A stretch of 64,000 bases of DNA from Segetibacter aerophilus (GTDB lineage: Bacteria > Bacteroidota > Bacteroidia > Chitinophagales > Chitinophagaceae), in the NCBI RefSeq assembly GCF_007991655.1, contig NZ_BJYT01000016.1, positions 1-64,000 on the forward strand, read 5' to 3'. A program made the position numbers and the translations under genes. Below, piece by piece: positions 25,560 to 41,140 of the stretch. Every line of letters begins with the position of its first letter. Positions within the stretch are counted from its first letter, which is position 1. The notes below the pieces were generated by a model that saw only the letters and a list, made by a program, of their open reading frames with translations, was not told where the DNA came from and ran no database searches.

Positions 25560-28500
25560 TCATCGCATCAGCAACACCGATCCTTTTACGAAGACTTCTT
25601 TGCCTTGCAGATCTGTTCCGCTAATGATGTAGATATAGACGCCCATGTCGGAAAGATTACCCTTATACTTTCCATTCCACCCGGTTTGTTGGTCGCGCGT
25701 TGTGAAGACTTTTGCGCCCCACCTGTTAAAGACAGTAAACTCCTTTAAAGTAATGGAAGTAGCAGGGGGTATCCTGAACACATCGTTTTTACCGTCGTCG
25801 TTTGGGGTGAAGGCAGTGGGCATATACAGGTCAGTAACTACTCTTAAAACGGCTTCTTTACTTGTAGTGCATCCATTTGCAGATACGGCATTGAGTTTAT
25901 AAGTAGTAGTCGCGAGAACAGGAAGCGTAAGAGGTGAAAGGTTTTGCGAATTAGTGAATGCATTAGCGGGGCTCCACGTATACGAGGCAACATTACCAAT
26001 AATGCTCACCCTCATTTGAACCTGTGCACCTGGCTGTACAATCGTATCAACAGGGCTAACGATGATTTCGGGAACGGGCTTTACCACGAGCGTAATCGTG
26101 TTCGACGAATCTGCAGAGAGGGTAGCGCACGATGAATTTGCAGCCGCAACAACCAATTGTATGTTGTCTTTATTGACAGGTGTGTTGTAAGTAAAAGTTG
26201 GATTGCCGGTTGCAAGTGTATTACCATTTACCAGCCAGTTATAGGTTGAGGTGCTACCGGCATTTTGTGTGCGGGCAGTGAAAGTTATTGGCTTAGTTCC
26301 GCAGATATCATTAACGGATGCTGTAATGTTAACAGTAGCTCTGACGGGTGTGGTTACTTTAATCGTTATGCTGTTAGAAGTGGTATTGGAACTACTGAAA
26401 CATTTCGTTGCATCAACAATTACTACGCAAGTAACTACGTCGCCATCGTTTAGATTTTGAGTCGTAAAGCTTTTACTATTTGTGCCTGCGTTGGTGCCGT
26501 TGATCTTCCATTGGTAAACAGGATTCACCCCGACTTCTGCAGTCGTAGCTTTGAATGTTACCGGAGCATTTTTACAAATGTTCGTAAAATCTGACGAGAT
26601 ACTAATCGACGGATTCAGGGCAGTATTTACAACTATCTTAATGGGATCAGAATAGTCTTTTGTACTTCCTCCCCCGCATTGTGGCACGGTCATACGGCAT
26701 TGTACTTCAGATCCATTAGTAAGTGTAGTGGTAGAATAGATAGTGCTGTAGGCGCCCACCTCTTTTCCATCTACGAACCATGTATAAATAGGGGTGGGGT
26801 TGCCACTTTTATTTGTAGCTGTAAAAGTCACAAGGTCACCGGTACAAATACTGATTGAAGTAGCAGCGACGGTTACTTCGGGTGTAGGCCCCTGGTCGAG
26901 AATGATCGTAATGCTGTTGCTTGTTGCCGAAGAAGGTGGGCCGCAATCGCCCCTGGTCATTACCGTACAGGTGATGACCTCGTTATTTAAAAACATATTA
27001 GAAGAATAAGTTGGGCTATTTGTTCCAACCGGCAAGCCATTTTTTTTCCATTGGTAAACAGGATTATTGCCGGCGCCTGTAGCGGTTGCGGTGAGCGTAA
27101 TAGGTGCACCATAACAAACGCTATTTGTAGAAGAGGTGATGCTTATCGCAGGAGCTTCTACGGGATTAACGGCAATCGTGATGGCATTACTTGTGGCTGT
27201 ATTTATAGGGAGACAATTATAGATGGAAGTTATGGTACAAGTGATGATGTCGCCTGTAACAGGGTTCTCATGGATATAGCCTCTTGAGTTCTGTCCAACG
27301 TTTACTCCATTTTTTTTCCATTGATAGGTAGGATTTGTGCCTGCATTAGCCGGGGTGGCAAAAAAACTTATACTATAGTTACTGCAAAATGTTGTTGAGG
27401 TTGTATAAATGGAAACGGTTGGTGGAACGGTAGGCGCAATAGACAAAGTAGCAACGGCTGAATAGCTAACTCCACACGCATTAGCAACTGCACAGCGATA
27501 GGTATAAGCGTTCATGGAAGGAGTAGCGCCGGTGATTTGTAAAGTATTTGTTTTGGCGCCTGTATAGGTTACATTATTAGGAACATCCACCCATCCAGCA
27601 CCTGTGTTCACGAGCCACTGATAGGTTGCAGTATTAACTGCCTCGATGGTAAAGCTTGTTGCGCTATTGCTGCAAACAATTACGTCTTTAGGCTGAACGG
27701 TTACGGTAGCTGAGGAGGATGAACTTATTTTTCTTACCAGCTGGTTATAAGTGTCTGTTATGTACAGGTTATTACATGCATCTACTGTAACGGCTGTAGG
27801 AAACCATAGTCTTGCCGCCAGGGCAGGTCCGCCATCTCCTGAAGTTCCTGCGTGTTGTCCAAGGCCGGCAATGGTTATAATTATTCCTGTGGGATCGATC
27901 TTTCTGATTACGTGATTTTGATAATCGGCAGCATAAATATTGCCTGCGTTATCGACTGCCAAATCATTGGGGGAGTTGACCGTAAATTGCGCCGCTGTCG
28001 CCGGACCGCCATCGCCTGTGAAACCATAGGTGCCATTTCCTGCAATGGTGATTATTATTCCTGCAGTGTTTACTTTCCTGATGACTGCGTTTTGTCCGTC
28101 AGCTATCAGAAGGTTACCAAGGTTATCAACGGCGACACCATCAGGCGATGTGAGTTGGGCGGCAGTAGCCGGACCGCCATCGCCGCTATAGCCTGCAACG
28201 CCGCTTCCGGCAATCGTAGTGATAATGCCTGCTGCGTTTACTTTTCTAACAACCTTATTGTATTTATCTGCGATGTAAATATTGTCGAGGGCATCAATGG
28301 CCATGTCTACCGGGTTATCAAGTTGTGCAGCTGTTGCAGCACCACCATCACCGCTATAGCCTTTTGTGCCATTGCCCGCTACAGTAGTAATCTTGCCTGC
28401 TGCATCGACCTTTCGTACAACAGAGTTAACAGCTTCAAGAATAAACAAATTGCCTTTGCTGTCAATTGCCACACTATTGGGAAACCAAAGCCTTGCTGCC

Positions 28501-28841
28501 GTTGCCAGACCGCCATCGCCGCTGTACCCAAAAGCACCTGTTCCGGCAACCGTGCTAATTATTCCTGAAGCCGAGACTTTTCTGACAACATGATTGTTGC
28601 CATCCGGGATATACAGGTTGCCAAACTGATCGACTGTTGTTCTTCCCGGGTAACTCAACCTTGCTGAAATGGCATAGCCTCCGTCACCCGAATAGCCGGC
28701 ACCTCCAGGTTGTCCTGCATAGGTGTCGATAGTTTGAGCATTAATTTGTGCAAATAAGAAAAGAAAGAAAAGAGATAATAGTAGAGTAGGATAGGAGCTT
28801 CTTTGAATGATTATTGTGCTTTTTTTTAAAACGTCGAACAT
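25560..28841 (-). CDS. Secreted NHL-repeat/Ig-like protein with T9SS sorting domain
   Basis: A 1093-residue surface or extracellular protein. A signal peptide ends near residue 36 (LFAQINAQ). Residues 37-390 hold six to seven NHL-type beta-propeller blades, each carrying the phrase GYSGDGGxATAARL and ending VRKV. About residues 395-1000 carry repeated Ig-like/PKD-like domains with phrases such as NPVYQWKKNG. The last 90 residues are the gliding-motility-associated domain (YMPTAFTPNDDGKNDVFRIP, FNRWGAKVF, WNGKYKGN, GVYIYII), which directs export by the type IX system and cell-surface attachment. Its partner or ligand is unknown. The long opposite-strand frames inside it come from its repetitive codons. 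Confidence 0.9.
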   Translation of the reverse strand: MFDVLKKSTIIIQRSSYPTLLLSLFFLFLFAQINAQTIDTYAGQPGGAGYSGDGGYAISARLSYPGRTTVDQFGNLYIPDGNNHVVRKVSASGIISTVAGTGAFGYSGDGGLATAARLWFPNSVAIDSKGNLFILEAVNSVVRKVDAAGKITTVAGNGTKGYSGDGGAATAAQLDNPVDMAIDALDNIYIADKYNKVVRKVNAAGIITTIAGSGVAGYSGDGGPATAAQLTSPDGVAVDNLGNLLIADGQNAVIRKVNTAGIIITIAGNGTYGFTGDGGPATAAQFTVNSPNDLAVDNAGNIYAADYQNHVIRKIDPTGIIITIAGLGQHAGTSGDGGPALAARLWFPTAVTVDACNNLYITDTYNQLVRKISSSSSATVTVQPKDVIVCSNSATSFTIEAVNTATYQWLVNTGAGWVDVPNNVTYTGAKTNTLQITGATPSMNAYTYRCAVANACGVSYSAVATLSIAPTVPPTVSIYTTSTTFCSNYSISFFATPANAGTNPTYQWKKNGVNVGQNSRGYIHENPVTGDIITCTITSIYNCLPINTATSNAITIAVNPVEAPAISITSSTNSVCYGAPITLTATATGAGNNPVYQWKKNGLPVGTNSPTYSSNMFLNNEVITCTVMTRGDCGPPSSATSNSITIILDQGPTPEVTVAATSISICTGDLVTFTATNKSGNPTPIYTWFVDGKEVGAYSTIYSTTTLTNGSEVQCRMTVPQCGGGSTKDYSDPIKIVVNTALNPSISISSDFTNICKNAPVTFKATTAEVGVNPVYQWKINGTNAGTNSKSFTTQNLNDGDVVTCVVIVDATKCFSSSNTTSNSITIKVTTPVRATVNITASVNDICGTKPITFTARTQNAGSTSTYNWLVNGNTLATGNPTFTYNTPVNKDNIQLVVAAANSSCATLSADSSNTITLVVKPVPEIIVSPVDTIVQPGAQVQMRVSIIGNVASYTWSPANAFTNSQNLSPLTLPVLATTTYKLNAVSANGCTTSKEAVLRVVTDLYMPTAFTPNDDGKNDVFRIPPATSITLKEFTVFNRWGAKVFTTRDQQTGWNGKYKGNLSDMGVYIYIISGTDLQGKEVFVKGSVLLMR

Positions 28842-30742: not shown

Positions 30743-31207
30743 TTACTGTTTCTGGAAATCGACCGTCAAACTCTTTGTATTTAAAGTGACTTTATAAGTA
30801 CCTGCTTCGGCACTTGTCAGCTTCCATTTTACATCGGGGTTGCCGCCGGGGCTAAGCTGAGCTTTGTTGTTACTAATAGATTGCGCAGCAGTAGCAGCCC
30901 CAAACGTATCGGAGCTGAAGTTTAAAGCAGTAGGAAATTTTATTTCACCTGCAGTCAAAGGACCGGTCCACGTGAAAACGTTCGCTTCTGTGCCTTTTGT
31001 CATCGGTAGGGCGTTTGCAATCGTCCATCCGGCAGTGGTTGCATCGCCGATCAGGTAGGCTTTATCGTAGTCCAATGTTATCGGATCGCCTGCCTTCAGC
31101 TCCTTGCTGCAAGATGCAACTAAGACTACACATAGTATTAGCAAAAGTGAATTCACCGCTCTGAATGTTCGTCTGCTTCGTGAGGCGGCTGTTAGAATAA
31201 ATTTCAT
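30743..31207 (-). CDS. SusE/SusF-like outer-membrane lipoprotein
   Basis: A 154-residue lipoprotein (LLLILCVVLVASC, cysteine near residue 33). The mature part has a domain resembling the starch-binding SusE/SusF repeat: DKAYLIGDATTAGWTIANAL, then a WTGPLTAGEIKFPT strand and TYKVTLNTKSLTVDF at the end. Classical SusE and SusF carry two or three such domains; this one has a single unit. It is third in the SusC-SusD-SusE-like operon read leftward, 64 bp after the SusD gene. It probably helps hold a glycan at the cell surface. Confidence 0.75.
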   Translation of the reverse strand: MKFILTAASRSRRTFRAVNSLLLILCVVLVASCSKELKAGDPITLDYDKAYLIGDATTAGWTIANALPMTKGTEANVFTWTGPLTAGEIKFPTALNFSSDTFGAATAAQSISNNKAQLSPGGNPDVKWKLTSAEAGTYKVTLNTKSLTVDFQKQ

Positions 31208-31271
31208 CTTTTTTATGTTTGATATTTTTTAATTGACAGCTTCTACGTCTGTCACAGAAATTGAACAGCTA

Positions 31272-32984
31272 TTAATATCCCGGGTTTTGTTTTAACTGCG
31301 GAGACAGGTTAAGGATGGCCTGGCCGATTGGAAAAATCTGTGTGTGATTATCCGGATCCGGCGTCTTATCCCACCATGTACCAGTATTAAATACTCCCCA
31401 GCGGATCAAGTCTGTACGTCTGCGTCTTTCCACCAAAAATTCACGCATCCATTCGTCCAGCATTTCGTTGTCGTTTAATTCGCTTCCTGAAACGCTGTAC
31501 AAACTTGGAGAACCTGCAGGATAATTTCTCTTGCGTACTGCATTTAACAGGCTTGCTGCCCCGGCCTTATCACCTGCTCTGTACTTACATTCTGCAAGTG
31601 AATAATAGATTTCTGCGTACCTGATTTCAGCATAAGCAGATGTAATTTTATTAGGATCATCAGAAGGATAGATTGGATATTTAACCGGCCACACTCCCGA
31701 GTTATCGTCTGCGTGATTCATGTTAGACTCTTTGTCGGCAGGCACCTGTCCCGGAGGGGTAGCTTTAAATAATCCTACCTGGTCACGCGCGAAGATTGTA
31801 TAACCCCGGTTGCTTTTAACGAACTGGTTAGGGTTATTGTAGTAGGGGAGGTAGCCGTACATGAACATCCCTTCACGTTTACTTCCACCCAAATTCTTAT
31901 ACTTTTTCAGACGCAGGTCATCACTGTATTTCTGAAACTTTACAAAGGGTTTTCCAAGTGCAAACGGATATTCTACGCTGTCAACATTTCTTCCGGGTTG
32001 CAGTGCATATCTTGTATTCATACCTCCAAAGTCGGTGAAGCCAAAATAGTTCTGCGCCTGGTGAGGACCCATCCACCAATACATATCACCCGTGTACTGC
32101 CAGTGTGTAAGTGCGAAGCTTCCGGGGAAGCCAAAAATAACTTCAGGAGAAGTAGAGTTTGTATAATCGAACGGAGCATCCCAACGACTCTCTAAAGCAT
32201 AGGTGCCATATTTGCCATTGATGATGTCCTGGCAAACTGCTGCACACTGGGTAAATTTATCCTGCCCGATGTACACCTTTGCATTGAGGTATAGACGTAC
32301 TAACAAAGACGCAGCTCCTGCTTTTGTCCAGCGTCCAATAGAGCTTGTCCCTAAGGCTTGTCTTGTAGGAAGTCCGGGAATTGCATCCAGCAATTCTTTT
32401 TCAATGAAATCGAAAACCTCCTGCGGTGTAGCCTGAGGCGGCATAGTTCCCTCTCCTTTGATCTTTGTAACAATGGGAATATTTCTATAGAGATCAAATG
32501 CGCGAAGGTTGAACCAGGCGCGTAAAGTTTTCAATTCTGCAACATAATCTGCCTTCTCTGCTTCTGCCAGGTTAAACTTAGCAGGGTCAATTGCCTGGAT
32601 GTCCTCAAGAGAGTTAGTCGCTAAACTGATACCTTGGAACAGACCGGTCCACATATCACTTGTGTAATTGTCCTGTATGGTCCAGGTGTGATAATGCAAC
32701 CGCTGGTATAGTCCACCATCAAACCAGTCGCCTTCCCTGTTTGGCGTCATCAACTCATCAGAGGGTAATTCTTGTGCATAGAAGTTTCCACCTCCCTGGA
32801 TTGTCCAGTAACCATGTTCAAATGCCCTTAGAAAATCCCGAACAACATCATCTTTCGTTTGAAGAAAGTTGGCTGAAGTAATACGATCATACAAGGTTTC
32901 ATCGAGTTTCGTACAACTATTAGAAAATGCCATAATGAAGCAACTGATGGCAATCGTGTACTTGTATTTATTAATGAGTTTCAT
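31272..32984 (-). CDS. SusD/RagB-family nutrient-binding lipoprotein
   Basis: A 570-residue surface lipoprotein with lipobox ISCFIMAFSNSC near residue 24. It has the RagB/SusD plan: an N-terminal SusD-like helical part (YVAELKTLRAWFNLRAFDLYRNIPIV) and the C-terminal RagB region with YAEIRYAEIYYSLAECKYRA, then WMREFLVERRRRTDLIRWG. It lies 19 bp after the SusC-type gene in the same operon. It should form the lid of the SusC channel and select the ligand. The ligand class is probably a glycan, because a SusE-like protein follows. Confidence 0.92.
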   Translation of the reverse strand: MKLINKYKYTIAISCFIMAFSNSCTKLDETLYDRITSANFLQTKDDVVRDFLRAFEHGYWTIQGGGNFYAQELPSDELMTPNREGDWFDGGLYQRLHYHTWTIQDNYTSDMWTGLFQGISLATNSLEDIQAIDPAKFNLAEAEKADYVAELKTLRAWFNLRAFDLYRNIPIVTKIKGEGTMPPQATPQEVFDFIEKELLDAIPGLPTRQALGTSSIGRWTKAGAASLLVRLYLNAKVYIGQDKFTQCAAVCQDIINGKYGTYALESRWDAPFDYTNSTSPEVIFGFPGSFALTHWQYTGDMYWWMGPHQAQNYFGFTDFGGMNTRYALQPGRNVDSVEYPFALGKPFVKFQKYSDDLRLKKYKNLGGSKREGMFMYGYLPYYNNPNQFVKSNRGYTIFARDQVGLFKATPPGQVPADKESNMNHADDNSGVWPVKYPIYPSDDPNKITSAYAEIRYAEIYYSLAECKYRAGDKAGAASLLNAVRKRNYPAGSPSLYSVSGSELNDNEMLDEWMREFLVERRRRTDLIRWGVFNTGTWWDKTPDPDNHTQIFPIGQAILNLSPQLKQNPGY

Positions 32985-33003
32985 CTTATTAATTCGTTAA
33001 GCG

Positions 33004-35955
33004 TTAAAATTTAAATTGTAATCCCACAAGCAACTGCAATGATGAAGGGTAGTAGGACAATGATGAGTTGATACCCGGTGTTAATCCATTAACCTGTACT
33101 GACTCAGGATCGCCTGTTGTGAACTTAGTGAATGTGTACAGGTTTCTTCCTGTTAAGTAAAGCCTGCCTGAATTCACAAATTTTATCGGTGACTTAAAGT
33201 TGTATCCCAGGGTTACGTTGTCAATTTTTACATAGCTACCTTCTTCCAAAAAGTAATCAGACAAGCTGGAATAAGTTGCAGGGCTGGTCAACGCTGCATA
33301 TTTACCATCGCCATAGGCTGTAGTAAGCACATTAGCACCTGACTGTGTTACCGGAGTTCCTGCATAAAAGGCAGTAGTATTAAAGATTTTGTACCCAAAA
33401 GTTCCTCTCAGGTAAATATTAAGATCGAGGTTTTTATAAGTCAGGGTATTACCAAGACTTGCAGTATACCTTGGCAACCCATTACCTACGTATTGTTTGT
33501 CAGCAGCAGAAGCCTGGTTTCCGGGAATAATTTTTCCGTCTTTATTATACACTAACAATCTTCCGACAGCATCTCTTCCTGCAGACCGCAGCATATAAAA
33601 ACTACCGATTCTTCTTCCTTCTTCCAAACGTTGCGCTGTTCCTGGTGAACCCGGGCTTGGCATACCAACCATGTCAACAAACTTTTGTCCGCGGTAAGTT
33701 TCGTTTGAAAATGATACGAACTTATTTTCATTGGTAGATCCTGCGAAAGAAAGGGAATAATTAAAGTCTTTACCTCTTATTGCCTGCGCTGTCAACTGAA
33801 CTTCAAATCCTGTATTTTTCATTGTACCAACGTTCGCAAAAGTGGTTCCCTGCACGTTAGGGGGAACGGGAACGTTATAACTTCCCAACAAATCTTTATT
33901 GGTTCTAACATAATAATTTAAGCTACCTGAAAGAACACTCTTCAAAATGTCGAAATCTACACCAAGGTTGAAGTTTTGTGATTTCTCCCATCTTAGCTCG
34001 TAGTTTGTATTCTGGCTAGGCCCCCATACCTGGTAAGAAGTTCCGTTGTACAGGTAGTAACCATAACCAGAATAAGTATCAAGGGAAAGGTAATTTCCAA
34101 AATCCTGGTTACCTGTTTCGCCATAGTCGGCACGTAATTTCAACTCGCTGATCCAGGGAACGGAAAAGAAGTTTTCGTTGCTAATTCTCCAACCAACCGA
34201 AGCGGCCGGAAAGTAACCCCACTTGTTAGCAATACCGAATTTGGATGAACCCTCTCTTCTTACGCTCGCAGACATAAAATACTTCTTACCGAAGTCATAG
34301 TTTAATCGGCCAAAAAAGGAAATCAGCTTTGAGTCATTTTTGAAAGATCCAACCCCATTTTGCCCCACCAGAAGATTGTAGGCACCAGTTCCAAGATTGT
34401 TATAGGTTAACACATCTGAAGGAAATCCCTGGTTTGAAGCGTTCAGGCCGGAGCTATTTGCATAAAAGTAAGAATACCCTCCTAAAAGCTTGAAAGCGTG
34501 AGGACCGAGGTTGAGCGAATAATTGGCGATCCACTCAAGGCTTTTCTGGTCATTTTTATTGTAATCTCTGCCGGCAGTATTTCTACCACCATTCGAATTG
34601 ATCAGGCTTGTATTATACGAAGGCGTAAAGTTGAAGCCAAAGAAATCCTGTGTTTGCTCACCTACCGTAAGCTGAGTGTAAAGATCTTTCGAGATGTTGA
34701 GCCTGAATGAGCTGCTCATATCCAGGTATTTGCCTTCTGTTCCACTCAATACTGTATTGAGTTCTTCAATCGGGTTGTATGATCCCGAAAAACCTGTGCG
34801 GATGTTATAGTACCTGTTAGGATTTGCCGTGTCTCTTATAGGAATTGTAGGGTTAAGTGTAATCCCCTGGTTAAATGCTCCGTAACTCGCATTGCTTGTT
34901 TTAAGATAACGGGGAGCTATGGTAACAGCCACCGTATATAAGTTATTAGCTGAAGTATGGTTTAGATTTAAACGCGCACCATATTCCCTTTTGGCCGATC
35001 TTAAATCTAAACCTTGTGCATTACGGTAGTCCAACGAAAGCAAGTAATTTGTCTTTGAACTTCCCCCTGAAAACTGGACTGTATGTTTTGTAGAGGTTGC
35101 ATGATCCCTGCTAACTGCTTTAAACCAGTTCGTATTTCCGCCATAGTCAACCCCTCTACCACGTTTTACAAACTCGTCGCGTGAAAGTACTTTCAGCTGG
35201 TTGGTAGCAAAATCAAAACTCGTGTAACCGTCATAAAAAGCTTGTGGCTGGCCTGTGCCTTTTTTAGTAGTAATGATAATAACACCATTTCCACCACGGG
35301 TACCATAAATAGCAGAAGCTGCGCCACCCTTCAATACATCAATTGACTCGATATCATTCTGGTTTATGTTATCGATGTTTCCGCCGGGTATTCCATTTAC
35401 AACATATAAAGGTCCCAGTCCTGCATTACGAGACGAGGCACCGCGAAGTTGAATATTAGGTGATGAGTTAGGATCTGCAGGAGCAGTATTTACAACGGAC
35501 AATCCTGCCACTTTACCTTGCATTGACATTAAGGCGCCATTTCCACCTACGGTCAGTAAGTCTTTAGAAGAAAGATGGGTAACCGCGCTGGTAACTTCTC
35601 TTTTTTCCAAGGTTCCGTATCCGACCGAAACTACTACTACGCTGGTGAGCGAGTTGGCGGATGAACTAAGCGTAACATTAACAGGCCCATTTCCTATCGG
35701 CACTTCCTGGGTTACAAAGTTTACAGAACTAATAACCAGGGTAGTGGCATTCGATGACACGCGCAACGAAAAAGCTCCATTAGAAGAAGTTTGTGTTCCC
35801 GTCGTGGCACCTTTTACTAATACAGACGCATTAGCTACCGGTGAACCCGTAGAATCGGTTACCCTTCCGGTAACTTGTCTGTCTTGTGCAACCGCTCTTC
35901 CTGCTAAAAGGAACAAAGGCAGGACGATCGCTAAGAGTAATTGTTTAAACATCAT
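33004..35955 (-). CDS. SusC/RagA TonB-linked outer-membrane transporter
   Basis: A 983-residue channel, first gene of the three-gene operon. The signal peptide ends at AVAQD (residue 25). The carboxypeptidase-like domain is QVTGRVTDSTGSPVANASVL. The SusC signature region reads VVVSVGYGTLEKREVTSAVT, and the plug has LYVVNGIPGGNIDNINQNDI and VLKGGAASAIYGTRGGNGVI. The barrel follows to the terminal strand LLVGLQFKF. It imports its ligand with TonB energy. No degradative enzymes lie in the locus. Confidence 0.93.
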   Translation of the reverse strand: MMFKQLLLAIVLPLFLLAGRAVAQDRQVTGRVTDSTGSPVANASVLVKGATTGTQTSSNGAFSLRVSSNATTLVISSVNFVTQEVPIGNGPVNVTLSSSANSLTSVVVVSVGYGTLEKREVTSAVTHLSSKDLLTVGGNGALMSMQGKVAGLSVVNTAPADPNSSPNIQLRGASSRNAGLGPLYVVNGIPGGNIDNINQNDIESIDVLKGGAASAIYGTRGGNGVIIITTKKGTGQPQAFYDGYTSFDFATNQLKVLSRDEFVKRGRGVDYGGNTNWFKAVSRDHATSTKHTVQFSGGSSKTNYLLSLDYRNAQGLDLRSAKREYGARLNLNHTSANNLYTVAVTIAPRYLKTSNASYGAFNQGITLNPTIPIRDTANPNRYYNIRTGFSGSYNPIEELNTVLSGTEGKYLDMSSSFRLNISKDLYTQLTVGEQTQDFFGFNFTPSYNTSLINSNGGRNTAGRDYNKNDQKSLEWIANYSLNLGPHAFKLLGGYSYFYANSSGLNASNQGFPSDVLTYNNLGTGAYNLLVGQNGVGSFKNDSKLISFFGRLNYDFGKKYFMSASVRREGSSKFGIANKWGYFPAASVGWRISNENFFSVPWISELKLRADYGETGNQDFGNYLSLDTYSGYGYYLYNGTSYQVWGPSQNTNYELRWEKSQNFNLGVDFDILKSVLSGSLNYYVRTNKDLLGSYNVPVPPNVQGTTFANVGTMKNTGFEVQLTAQAIRGKDFNYSLSFAGSTNENKFVSFSNETYRGQKFVDMVGMPSPGSPGTAQRLEEGRRIGSFYMLRSAGRDAVGRLLVYNKDGKIIPGNQASAADKQYVGNGLPRYTASLGNTLTYKNLDLNIYLRGTFGYKIFNTTAFYAGTPVTQSGANVLTTAYGDGKYAALTSPATYSSLSDYFLEEGSYVKIDNVTLGYNFKSPIKFVNSGRLYLTGRNLYTFTKFTTGDPESVQVNGLTPGINSSLSYYPSSLQLLVGLQFKF

Positions 35956-36581: not shown

Positions 36582-38657
36582 ATGAAAGCAGCCTTCCCTG
36601 CAGTAGCGTTTATTCTTGTCGGACTTATTTCATCTTGTGTTTCTAAACAGGAAAAAGAACTTGGCAGAAATTTGTTACTGGGTGCAGGATTTGGCATTAA
36701 CAGCGCTACATTAATTGTCCAAAACTTAGATAGCGCCCGAAATTATTACACGAATGTTCTAGGGTTTAATTTGCCGCGGCCAAAAAAGTTCAATCAGGGA
36801 AGCTATGATGGAACAGTGGGTCTTTCTGTTTATTTTCCTGACCTTTCGTTTATAGAACTTCTTTCAGTTAAGGATACAGGACTGGTTGAAACGAAGCATC
36901 CATTTATTACTTCTTTTGCCCAGCACCAGGAAGGCGTGCGCGTATACTCGCTATCCACGTCTTCGGCTGATACAACATACAGTTGGATGAGTTCACAAGG
37001 AATTAAAACAGAGGCAGTCAAGGCCGGCCGTGCCACAGCAGAAATGCCAAAGGGCTGGAATTGGGATGATGGCGGACCTCAATACCGCACTATAGAGTTT
37101 AGCAGTAAAAACCCTCCCGGTTATCTCCCCAGCTTTACAGAATGGATTGGTTATCCTTACCAGGAAATGCAGGAAGGATGGAAACCTTACTCCTGGCGCA
37201 AATACTATCCGGAACAGCCTAACGGCGTAGTGGGAATATCTTCTTTGCTTGTTGTTGTTAACAATCTTGACTCTGCGCGTAAGGAGTTTTTAAAAATAGG
37301 ACTGACAGAATTGGAAGCAACTAACACCTCTGCCGGTTTTAAAATAGCACACAGCCAAAAGTTGCTTTTGATGGCCCCTAAGTCTCCAAACAATGAGCTT
37401 AGTAACTTTTTGAAAACACGCGGACCAGGTGTGTATGCTATACGTTTTGAAGTAAAAAAACTTAAAGACACGCAGGAGTTTCTGAAAAAGAAATTGCCGG
37501 CTGGAGCTTTGCGGTTTGACACGTCATTGAAACAACTGACAGTACCAAAGGAATATGCATACGGTGTTCAACTTGAATTTATAGAAGAACCGAAAGAGCA
37601 GGCAGAACTAGCTAAAATATACAACTTTAAGGAAGGTTCGAAACTGGATAGCGCATCGTCGCGGCATGCCTTGGGCATCTACACAAAGTACTGCGCCTTG
37701 TGTCATGGCAAAAATCGTGAAGGCTACGCGGCAGACTTTGCGCCTTCATTACGTTCCCATTCCTTAATGGCGACAACTCTCTTACCCAGATACAGTTACA
37801 ATTATCTCAGTCATACTATTGCTTATGGGCGTTCAGGCACCGCTATGGCACCCTATGCAAAAAGCCAGGGCGGACCGTTGGATGAGGATGACATCGATTT
37901 ATTGTTACAATGGCTCCATGAGTTGAGCGGCGTAAAAAAACCTATTGAAATGTCAACCAAACCTGTCATAGGCAATGCAACGCTCGGAAAAGCACTGTAC
38001 GCAAAATATTGTGCATCCTGCCATGGTATCAAGGGAGAAGGAATTCGTGCACCTGCACTAGGAAACCCGATGCTGTTAGCTACAGCCAGCGATGCGTTTT
38101 TACGCTACACCATTTCAGAAGGGAGAGACAGCACTCCAATGCCTGCATTTAAAGACAGCCTGAGCAAAGTTGAAATCAATGCGGTTACAGCTTATATCAG
38201 AAGTCGGGCTTCAGGCTGGAACGCTCCTGAAGCAGTTACTATGACACAACCCCTTTCTAAAAATTATGTATTAAACCCAAACAAGAAGGCACCGAAGTTT
38301 ACATTACGTGACGACCGCTACATATCTGCGCAACAACTTCTAAAGGCATTAAAAGACAGTTCGCGTATGATTTTACTGGATGCCAGATCGGAGGCGGCAT
38401 GGCATCAGACACATATTCCAGGTGCTATTTCTGTGCCTTACTACGAAGAGCCTGATACCTTTGTTAAGCGTATACCCAAAGACAGCACATGGATTGTTGC
38501 TTATTGTGCTTGTCCTCACGCTGCCTCCAACAGAGTTGTAAACACATTGCGGCGCTTTGGATATAAGCATACAGCAATTCTTGACGAAGGGATTCTTGTA
38601 TGGGCGCAGCGCGGGTATCCCGTGCAATACGGACAAGGCAATATGACTAAAAAGTAA
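36582..38657 (+). CDS. VOC-VOC-cytochrome c-cytochrome c-rhodanese lipoprotein
   Basis: A 691-residue multidomain protein. Its lipoprotein signal (LVGLISSC, cysteine 19) places it in the periplasm or outer membrane. About residues 40-195 and 210-345 are two glyoxalase/VOC-like units (NSATLIVQNLDSARNYYTNV; SSLLVVVNNLDSARKEFLKI). Two class-I cytochrome c domains follow with heme motifs CALCH (about 372-376) and CASCH (about 477-481), each with a later methionine. The last 110 residues are rhodanese-like (MILLDARSEAAWHQTHIPGA) with a cysteine loop YCACPHAAS. Each domain is recognisable, but I do not know this combination. The cytochromes suggest electron transfer and the rhodanese suggests sulfur handling; the joint role is inference. 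It is a single gene. Confidence 0.85.
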   Translation: MKAAFPAVAFILVGLISSCVSKQEKELGRNLLLGAGFGINSATLIVQNLDSARNYYTNVLGFNLPRPKKFNQGSYDGTVGLSVYFPDLSFIELLSVKDTGLVETKHPFITSFAQHQEGVRVYSLSTSSADTTYSWMSSQGIKTEAVKAGRATAEMPKGWNWDDGGPQYRTIEFSSKNPPGYLPSFTEWIGYPYQEMQEGWKPYSWRKYYPEQPNGVVGISSLLVVVNNLDSARKEFLKIGLTELEATNTSAGFKIAHSQKLLLMAPKSPNNELSNFLKTRGPGVYAIRFEVKKLKDTQEFLKKKLPAGALRFDTSLKQLTVPKEYAYGVQLEFIEEPKEQAELAKIYNFKEGSKLDSASSRHALGIYTKYCALCHGKNREGYAADFAPSLRSHSLMATTLLPRYSYNYLSHTIAYGRSGTAMAPYAKSQGGPLDEDDIDLLLQWLHELSGVKKPIEMSTKPVIGNATLGKALYAKYCASCHGIKGEGIRAPALGNPMLLATASDAFLRYTISEGRDSTPMPAFKDSLSKVEINAVTAYIRSRASGWNAPEAVTMTQPLSKNYVLNPNKKAPKFTLRDDRYISAQQLLKALKDSSRMILLDARSEAAWHQTHIPGAISVPYYEEPDTFVKRIPKDSTWIVAYCACPHAASNRVVNTLRRFGYKHTAILDEGILVWAQRGYPVQYGQGNMTKK

Positions 38658-39922: not shown

Positions 39923-41140
39923 ATGAGTTTAGGTACAAAAAGATCGAAATTAGGTACAAAAAGTAGAGCATCTAATGGCAGTGTTTCAATCCAGAATTTG
40001 CAGAACACAACCAGGCTCAAGTACACCTATAAAGGTAGCAGCTGCTATCTTACTATCCCTGCCAAAAGTGAACTCCAATCGACAATGGTTGAGTTGATTA
40101 AAAAGGGAATTGAAAAGGATCTTTATTTGGGTGTATACGATGAATCTCAATTGAAGTATAAGAAGTGGATAACCGAAAGAACTGTAGCTGAACAGCTTCA
40201 GCCAAAGTGCCAAGAATTACCCTTTGATGAGCATTTAATGCTTTGGATGGATGCAACGGACAGAAACGATTCAAAGGATGTTTATCACTACACTTATACT
40301 ATGGTGAGAAATTGGGTAAGAGATGGTCGAGATGTTCAGGCAATGAGGTTGCCTGGTCTTTTAGGTTCCATGAACTATGCCGCAAAAACGTATAATAACA
40401 GACGATTTGTTTTAAATTTATTCTGCAATTGGTTAGTTAAAAGAAAATTTATTGAATATAATCCTTTTGATGATGTTGCTATCAAAAGAAGAAAGGTTGG
40501 CAAAGATCCTAAAAGAAAAAGACTAACCGATAGTGAAATAAGCAATATTTTGGTTGCAATTAAAGATGATCGATTCCAAAAGCCAAACAACCGTGGATAC
40601 ACCCACAGTCATTATTATTCCATTTTTTGTTTTCTGATCTTTACAGGATGTAGACCTGCTGAGGCAATTGGTTTAACGGTTAAAAAGGTGGATTTTAATA
40701 GAAAAGCTATTACCATTGACTCTGCGTTCGCAAGAACCAGGAAAGGAACATCTTTTGCCTGTAGGAGAATGAAGGGAACTAAAACCGAGGAAATTAGGGA
40801 ATTGCCATTTGAGGAAAACAGTATGTTATATGCCGTACTTAAGAAAGAATGTGAAGGTAAAAAGGCAAACGATTTCGTTTTTAAAGGTCCTGACGGTCCG
40901 ACATGTGACGATAGGAAAATGAATGACACGGTTTTGAAGAATGTACTGGAAGGACTGAACATACCACCACGTGTGCTTTACTGTTTTAGGCATTCCTTCT
41001 GTTCACGTTGCTTTGAACAAGGTATGGATATTAAATCTGTTCAAGCATTGACTGGGCATAGAGATGTAACAGTGTTATTAAATATCTATGCAGAGGTAAC
41101 GCATAAAAAAGTATGTATACCTGAACTAAATATCGTCTGA
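39923..41140 (+). CDS. int: Tyrosine recombinase/integrase
   Basis: A 405-residue site-specific recombinase that should insert and excise the element at tRNA-Leu. A SAM-like core-binding domain fills about residues 95-190. The catalytic domain has the first arginine in FTGCRPAEAIGL (R244), the second in YCFRHSFCSR (R356), the histidine in LTGHRDVT (H379) and the nucleophile in LLNIYAEV (Y389). The usual histidine three residues before the second arginine is replaced by tyrosine (Y353). There is no extra helix insert of the integron-integrase kind. Its first codons overlap two TTAGGTACAA repeats, which encode SLGTKRSKLGTKS, so coding sequence and a likely arm-binding site coincide. Confidence 0.92.
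   Translation: MSLGTKRSKLGTKSRASNGSVSIQNLQNTTRLKYTYKGSSCYLTIPAKSELQSTMVELIKKGIEKDLYLGVYDESQLKYKKWITERTVAEQLQPKCQELPFDEHLMLWMDATDRNDSKDVYHYTYTMVRNWVRDGRDVQAMRLPGLLGSMNYAAKTYNNRRFVLNLFCNWLVKRKFIEYNPFDDVAIKRRKVGKDPKRKRLTDSEISNILVAIKDDRFQKPNNRGYTHSHYYSIFCFLIFTGCRPAEAIGLTVKKVDFNRKAITIDSAFARTRKGTSFACRRMKGTKTEEIRELPFEENSMLYAVLKKECEGKKANDFVFKGPDGPTCDDRKMNDTVLKNVLEGLNIPPRVLYCFRHSFCSRCFEQGMDIKSVQALTGHRDVTVLLNIYAEVTHKKVCIPELNIV
39929..39959 (+). repeat. Paired TTAGGTACAA repeats, left end
   Basis: Two exact copies of TTAGGTACAA at 39929-39938 and 39950-39959, 21 bp start to start. The right end has two more with the same 21-bp spacing and orientation (62947 and 62968). Two helical turns put both on one DNA face, as for integrase arm-type sites. 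Confidence 0.75.

Follow-up and report, generated by a model that had tools for sequence, protein, structure and literature searches.

A single reading frame encoding five domains

Does the long reading frame at positions 36582-38657 of the window (the whole 64,000-nucleotide stretch of Segetibacter aerophilus DNA analysed here) encode one genuine protein in which two VOC units, two cytochromes c and a rhodanese are joined, and, if so, what might such a chain do in the cell envelope? On the plus strand these positions hold a single uninterrupted frame of 691 amino acids, and the reverse strand is full of stops. Pfam matches above cut-off were obtained for Cytochrome_CBB3 (two stretches), Cytochrom_C, Rhodanese (residues 584-676) and Glyoxalase_3 (residues 44-235). 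Sequence alone hardly reveals the second VOC unit, which matches the HPPD N-terminal profile below cut-off over residues 212-323 (E 0.034) and was recognised from an AlphaFold2 model of residues 20-351. The parts are as follows:

36582..36638, plus strand: signal peptide with lipobox LISSC; Cys19, found in 12/12 five-domain sequences, is the probable lipid anchor, judged from sequence
36696..37145, plus strand: first VOC domain, residues ~39-188 (PF13468 Glyoxalase_3, 39.2 bits against a cut-off of 25.1; PF00903, 23.9 against 20.6; strands and helices of the model)
37227..37589, plus strand: second VOC domain, residues ~216-336 (AlphaFold2 model; the tandem pair matches HPPD chains)
37650..37928, plus strand: first cytochrome c domain, residues ~357-449 (PF13442, two stretches in the protein)
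37692-37706, plus strand: haem motif CALCH, residues 371-375, first cytochrome c domain
37845-37847, plus strand: probable axial Met422, first cytochrome c domain
37974..38207, plus strand: second cytochrome c domain, residues ~465-542 (PF13442, best stretch 465-539; E 1.9e-20 for the protein)
38010-38024, plus strand: haem motif CASCH, residues 477-481, second cytochrome c domain
38139-38141, plus strand: probable axial Met520, second cytochrome c domain
38316..38627, plus strand: rhodanese domain, residues 579-682 (PF00581, 51 bits against a cut-off of 22.2)
38505-38513, plus strand: CxC loop Cys642/Cys644 within YCACPHAAS (641-649), rhodanese domain

A preliminary description had read the lipobox at residue 19, two VOC-like repeats, the CALCH and CASCH motifs and a C-terminal rhodanese with the cysteine loop YCACPHAAS from the letters, and each of these was recovered. 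Both cytochrome domains combine a CxxCH motif with a distal methionine, and PF13442 and PF00034 score 73.4 and 64.3 bits, above their cut-offs, which places them among class I cytochromes c with predicted haem attachment. The rhodanese assignment follows from PF00581 above its cut-off together with the active-site Cys642, kept in 25/25 core sequences, whilst membership of the VOC superfamily follows from PF13468 above its cut-off and from paired beta-alpha-beta modules in the predicted model.

Conservation and rarity of the fusion

Twelve different sequences, drawn from several families of Bacteroidota, carry the five-domain chain intact from end to end. The 11 other than the window protein are 47-76% identical to it in the alignment, and the arrangement is therefore neither chance nor an assembly artefact. 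The preliminary description had allowed that VOC and cytochrome parts might prove to be separate genes with a stop codon missing here; the parts do occur separately, but the whole chain is intact in all 12 sequences, which rules out a lost stop codon or an assembly fusion. The five-domain protein is thus a real, conserved and rare bacterial cell-envelope architecture made of known parts.

Matches were sparse at every taxonomic level. Within the family of the window, 4 of 294 genomes matched at E <= 1e-40, and within the phylum 6 of 395 matched at E <= 1e-14, its own genome being counted in both cases. A scan of named genomes yielded 15 related loci, comprising four five-domain loci (Adhaeribacter rhizoryzae, two Dyadobacter and one Ferruginibacter MAG), six with the cytochromes and rhodanese only and five (L020-L024) that had cytochrome parts only in common and were left out of further use. 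By eye, L013 duplicates L008 and L019 nearly duplicates L016, and both were omitted. Among 72,556 plasmids, the full protein gave no match at 1e-10, and the core, searched at 1e-5, matched 24 records only in part, with coverage below 80% throughout. A limited look at the literature found no description of the five-domain architecture or of its VOC-free core, and neither appears in the consulted parts of PMC9312934, PMC13188914, PMC13047784, PMC4853749, PMC9774590, PMC4109375, PMC7641849 and PMC8346489; the rhodanese-persulphide dioxygenase fusion in the part of PMC13047784 consulted is a different protein.

A dihaem cytochrome-rhodanese core without the VOC pair

In Proteobacteria, the dihaem cytochrome and rhodanese were found as one gene without the VOC pair, encoding 362-424 amino acids with starts as called here. 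At E <= 1e-30 and with the centre genome counted, the core profile matched 2 of 229 genomes in the class of Arenimonas, 1 of 240 in the class of a Parvularculaceae genome and 9 of 197 in the order of Pseudoalteromonas denitrificans (one cut at a contig end); L050, L052 and L053 are repeats of L014, L017 and L015. These VOC-free proteins include those of Pseudoalteromonas denitrificans (L015) and Arenimonas daejeonensis (L014); five of the group are 43-46% identical to the window core. The haem, methionine and CxC residues are shared by 13/13, but the VOC pair is absent and the leader, by eye, is mostly short and signal-peptide-like.

Residue counts and phylogeny were based on 25 core sequences, L061/L069 (cut at a contig end) having been excluded from both. 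Invariant in 25/25 were C371, C374, H375 and M422 at the first haem site, C477, C480, H481 and M520 at the second, and D600, R602, H611, C642, C644 and P645 in the rhodanese, whose loop reads CAC, CSC or CEC in every case, and both haem sites and the CxC loop are therefore under strong constraint. In the five-domain alignment, invariant cysteines are confined to Cys19, the four in the haem motifs and the CxC pair. A maximum-likelihood tree separated the 12 five-domain from the 13 core-only rows by one branch with support of 100/100. Within it, the nearest row to the window belonged to Adhaeribacter, a member of another family, rather than to a row of its own family; together with the sporadic occurrence of the gene, this suggests lateral transfer, although the inner forks are only partly resolved.

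From this pattern of conservation we tentatively take the C-terminal dihaem cytochrome c and CxC rhodanese to be the working core, to which the VOC pair would have been added in Bacteroidota. In the full-length model (mean pLDDT 68.8, pTM 0.61) the cytochromes are of low confidence, so contacts between domains and distances from the CxC pair to the haems are unreadable.

A putative path for electrons from the rhodanese to an oxidase

Most economically, a protein of this make-up would oxidise a substrate of the sulfane-sulfur or thiol class within the envelope. Our leading reading, held at somewhat short of an even chance, is that the protein is a self-contained periplasmic sulfane-sulfur/thiol:cytochrome c oxidoreductase bearing a VOC receptor added by Bacteroidota. 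As a lipid-anchored envelope protein, it would work through its C-terminal dihaem cytochrome c and CxC rhodanese: Cys642 would take up sulfane sulfur or form a mixed disulfide with a thiol substrate, Cys644 would act as the resolving second cysteine of a CxC redox pair, and electrons would pass singly through the two c haems to a terminal oxidase, for example one of cbb3 or caa3 type. The single path from the CxC of the rhodanese through two haems to an oxidase is drawn from the invariant parts, and from these we infer the substrate class, the direction of the electrons and the oxidase partner; lipidation and haem attachment are likewise predicted. The VOC pair placed in front, which seems to lack the usual metal site, would most likely bind and present an organic substrate, for example a thiol or persulfide adduct; in the Bacteroidota form it is most likely a binder of substrate or of a partner.

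The preliminary description had proposed that oxidation of a small organic or sulfur compound, bound by the VOC part, could be coupled to the respiratory chain. The coupling remains plausible, since both haem sites, with their TxM methionines, are conserved and the CxC of the rhodanese is invariant, whilst the part assigned to the VOC domains in the oxidation is weakened by the lack of conserved metal-site histidines and by the VOC-free core of Proteobacteria. A bolder version, which we regard as rather doubtful, would make the protein an undescribed one-gene periplasmic respiratory dehydrogenase, in which the CxC rhodanese hands electrons from sulfane sulfur or an organic persulfide directly to two c haems of the same chain, the VOC pair having been captured in Bacteroidota as a substrate receptor. 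If true, this would make a rhodanese an electron-donating redox enzyme, beyond its role as a sulfur transferase. If the sulfur/thiol reading is right, one gene would give reduced sulfur or thiols a compact way of feeding the respiratory chain, a gene found sporadically in two phyla and easily overlooked because each part alone resembles an ordinary cytochrome, rhodanese or glyoxalase.

The VOC pair as a probable binding part

The AlphaFold2 model of residues 20-351, built on an 11-row alignment, contains two tandem VOC units (mean pLDDT 79.4, pTM 0.83). Foldseek against solved structures placed HPPD and hydroxymandelate synthase chains best (best E 1.3e-12), and VIA-align gave a best Z of 20.5 (rmsd 3.2, 255 residues aligned, 11% identity). 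Like the window protein, HPPD and hydroxymandelate synthase have two tandem VOC domains per chain; unlike them, it is a predicted exported lipoprotein, lacks conserved metal-binding histidines and shares 11-16% identity in the structural alignments listed. By sequence, the profile of the VOC pair ranked a glyoxalase (E 9.5e-6) and methylmalonyl-CoA epimerases ahead of HPPD (E 7.4e-4) among solved proteins, and the HPPD likeness is therefore one of chain layout.

The predicted fold, close to that of HPPD, and the glyoxalase and epimerase matches would suit a VOC pair that is itself an enzyme, either an HPPD-like dioxygenase or a glyoxalase, with the core disposing of its electrons or sulfur product. 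We consider this very improbable. The metal site of HPPD consists of two histidines and one glutamate, whereas no position anywhere in residues 20-350 holds a histidine in more than 7 of the 12 sequences, an argument that concerns the absence of any conserved histidine and not a residue-by-residue mapping of the triad. The HPPD model TIGR01263 gives 23.3 bits here against a cut-off of 277, compared with 455 bits for the true HPPD of the same genome, and together with the histidine count this disfavours a metalloenzyme. A profile comparison of A3 with the HPPD of that genome aligned only 66 columns, with a probability of 1.3. The usual VOC metal site thus seems to be absent, and the pair is probably an accessory, binding part, since the core exists without it in Proteobacteria and no metal histidine is conserved.

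Relatives of the VOC pair were equally scarce. At E <= 1e-8 its profile matched 14 of 296 phylum genomes, namely six with the five-domain protein (E 9e-141 or better), G526 (E 4.3e-14) and seven weak cases, mostly to one unit. The G526 protein (L042:1108-2244; PF13468 and PF13669) is a stand-alone two-VOC protein and a distant relative of the VOC part; like the window protein, it has a lipobox-like leader by eye, two VOC units and a PNG motif before the second unit, at 26% identity, but it has no cytochrome or rhodanese. A separate gene that might partner the VOC-free core was sought at E <= 1e-5, and a two-VOC relative was found in 0/11 core-only genomes (those of L016 and L018 excluded), which rejects that candidate, and in 0/15 gammaproteobacterial non-carriers; in the same search, a match in each of the 12 five-domain carriers follows from how the query was built, and G526, the 39th genome, supplied one of its rows. 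VOC pair and core are therefore separable parts, joined, in this sample, in Bacteroidota only. Upstream of one five-domain gene, 292 bp away and on the same strand, lies a 122-residue frame that looks single-VOC-like by eye (L011:5322-5690).

Comparison with known systems and a possible link to cbb3 oxidase

According to the consulted sections of PMC9774590, the thiosulfate dehydrogenase TsdA uses a dihaem cytochrome c as electron acceptor, which is sometimes fused to the enzyme, and the layout proposed here, which shares with TsdA/TsdB a sulfur-active unit, a dihaem cytochrome c and the possibility of fusion, therefore has precedent. The active site of TsdA is a His/Cys-ligated haem (same sections), whereas Met422 and Met520 are invariant here, no spare cysteine is invariant, and the sulfur-active part would be the rhodanese, both haems having TxM methionines. 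The two successive haem c domains of CcoP offer a second likeness, the TIGR00782 profile aligning over both domains (E 8.3e-16) but scoring 58.1 bits against a cut-off of 179.95; unlike CcoP, the window protein is fused to a rhodanese and is not encoded with ccoN.

For the rhodanese, the best pure rhodanese profile in NCBIfam was NF041203, a rhodanese-related (seleno)protein, at 52 bits against a cut-off of 115. In the part of a 2026 review consulted (PMC13188914), NF041203 is listed as a rhodanese form with CxU selenoprotein members; cysteine at the first motif position is common to both, whilst here a second cysteine replaces the selenocysteine of CxU and the domain is fused to cytochromes. 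According to the consulted part of a 2022 review (PMC9312934), a redox role is likely for most selenoproteins that are still uncharacterised, and the present protein offers a clear test case for CxC/CxU rhodaneses as redox enzymes.

CcoN of the cbb3 oxidase was present in 23/23 carrier genomes (22 above cut-off; in the 23rd, G675, it was split over two matches) and in 57 of 70 non-carriers (56 above cut-off), the latter being genomes of at least 3 Mb hand-picked from earlier listings. As the difference (one-sided Fisher p 0.018) is uncorrected for kinship and the controls were chosen, the contrast is weak and only compatible with a cbb3 oxidase link, which it does not establish. In none of the 23 carriers did ccoN lie beside the gene, the best ccoN being on another contig or at least ~42 kb away.

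Gene neighbourhoods and alternative roles

The gene environment was compared across 26 loci, comprising the window and 25 fetched loci; neighbours were searched with profiles in the window, L032 and L035, whilst those beyond the next gene in L062-L071 were compared by BLAST. No constant or widely recurring neighbour of specific function emerged from the 26 loci, in the GC-rich members of which neighbours may escape a longest-ORF caller that missed the core gene of L070. With naming partly by eye, the groups found in at least three loci were two-component-type proteins (seven loci), ABC ATPases (six) and a dehydrogenase family, an RlmN-like protein and ArsR-type regulators (three each). No sulfur-oxidation cluster was recognised by eye in the neighbourhoods viewed, which counts against the sulfur reading, most neighbours having been viewed without a profile search. 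The occurrence of the core alone in Proteobacteria and the lack of a constant partner fit a self-contained enzyme feeding a general acceptor.

Rarity and the lack of a constant partner would also suit a reversed flow of electrons or a maintenance role, in which the haems would set the redox state of the CxC rhodanese, oxidised or reduced, so that it could repair or detoxify sulfur, cyanide or arsenic-type envelope stress while respiration gained nothing. Near one copy, in locus L033, frames resembling ArsR, aquaporin and ArsC were recognised by eye. As no stress gene is constantly linked in the 26 loci and two intact haem domains would seem better suited to electron export, we judge this role unlikely.

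Close same-strand neighbours, within 100 bp, were found in 5 of 12 core-only loci (L015, L017, L018, L062 and L067), where they differ except in the related pair L017/L018, and in 2 of 12 five-domain loci. These two, the only operon-like five-domain placements, adjoin metal-uptake genes, which speaks against the sulfur reading and is the only departure from it that recurs. In L032 (G539; L032:612-13585) the gene has two GTPase genes, one ZigA-like (597 bits; cut-off 600) and one CobW-like, on one side and a FecCD-type ABC system on the other, and in L035 (G477; L035:2308-10227) it lies 50 bp behind such a system; the permeases of the two loci share 66% identity although the genomes belong to different families. 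The protein could accordingly be a factor of metal or haem limitation, its VOC pair binding a metal chelate or siderophore-like molecule that the redox core reduces or releases for uptake. With only two of 12 five-domain loci so placed, no permease grouped with these in the other loci and the CxC rhodanese left unexplained, we hold this to be decidedly unlikely. L032 also encodes a TonB receptor whose best resemblance, at scores under the cut-offs, is to haem receptors. Proteins 71% identical to each other follow the five-domain gene in two f24 genomes (L035:10262-11875 and L071:5111-6883), the former matching the e(P4) phosphatase profile below its cut-off.

Metal-free VOC domains can be pure binders, as in bleomycin-resistance-type proteins, and ligand binding by the VOC pair might gate a core that signals rather than metabolises. 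The two-component-type proteins found in seven of the 26 loci, which could be read in favour of such a sensor or redox switch, are loosely grouped, form a broad paralogue group and lie at differing places, and no signalling gene is a constant neighbour; the chance that the protein is a switch appears slight, and a sulfane-sulfur/thiol oxidoreductase remains our preferred reading.

In the window itself, the adjoining genes on both sides lie on the opposite strand. One side holds a SusC/SusD/SusE-type locus (30743-35955, minus strand), in which a SusE-like protein accompanies a SusC/SusD-type pair, the usual make-up of a polymer-uptake locus in Bacteroidota, and the other a BSP-type peptidase and then a phage-type integrase (39923-41140), which begins ~1.3 kb downstream of the gene. 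G+C content, taken per 4 kb, drops from 0.39-0.44 before 40 kb to 0.36-0.39 beyond that point, resembling the edge of an integrated element. At 25560-28841 on the minus strand, the window also encodes a 1093-residue protein that combines NHL repeats and Ig-like domains with a CHU_C tail for type IX secretion.
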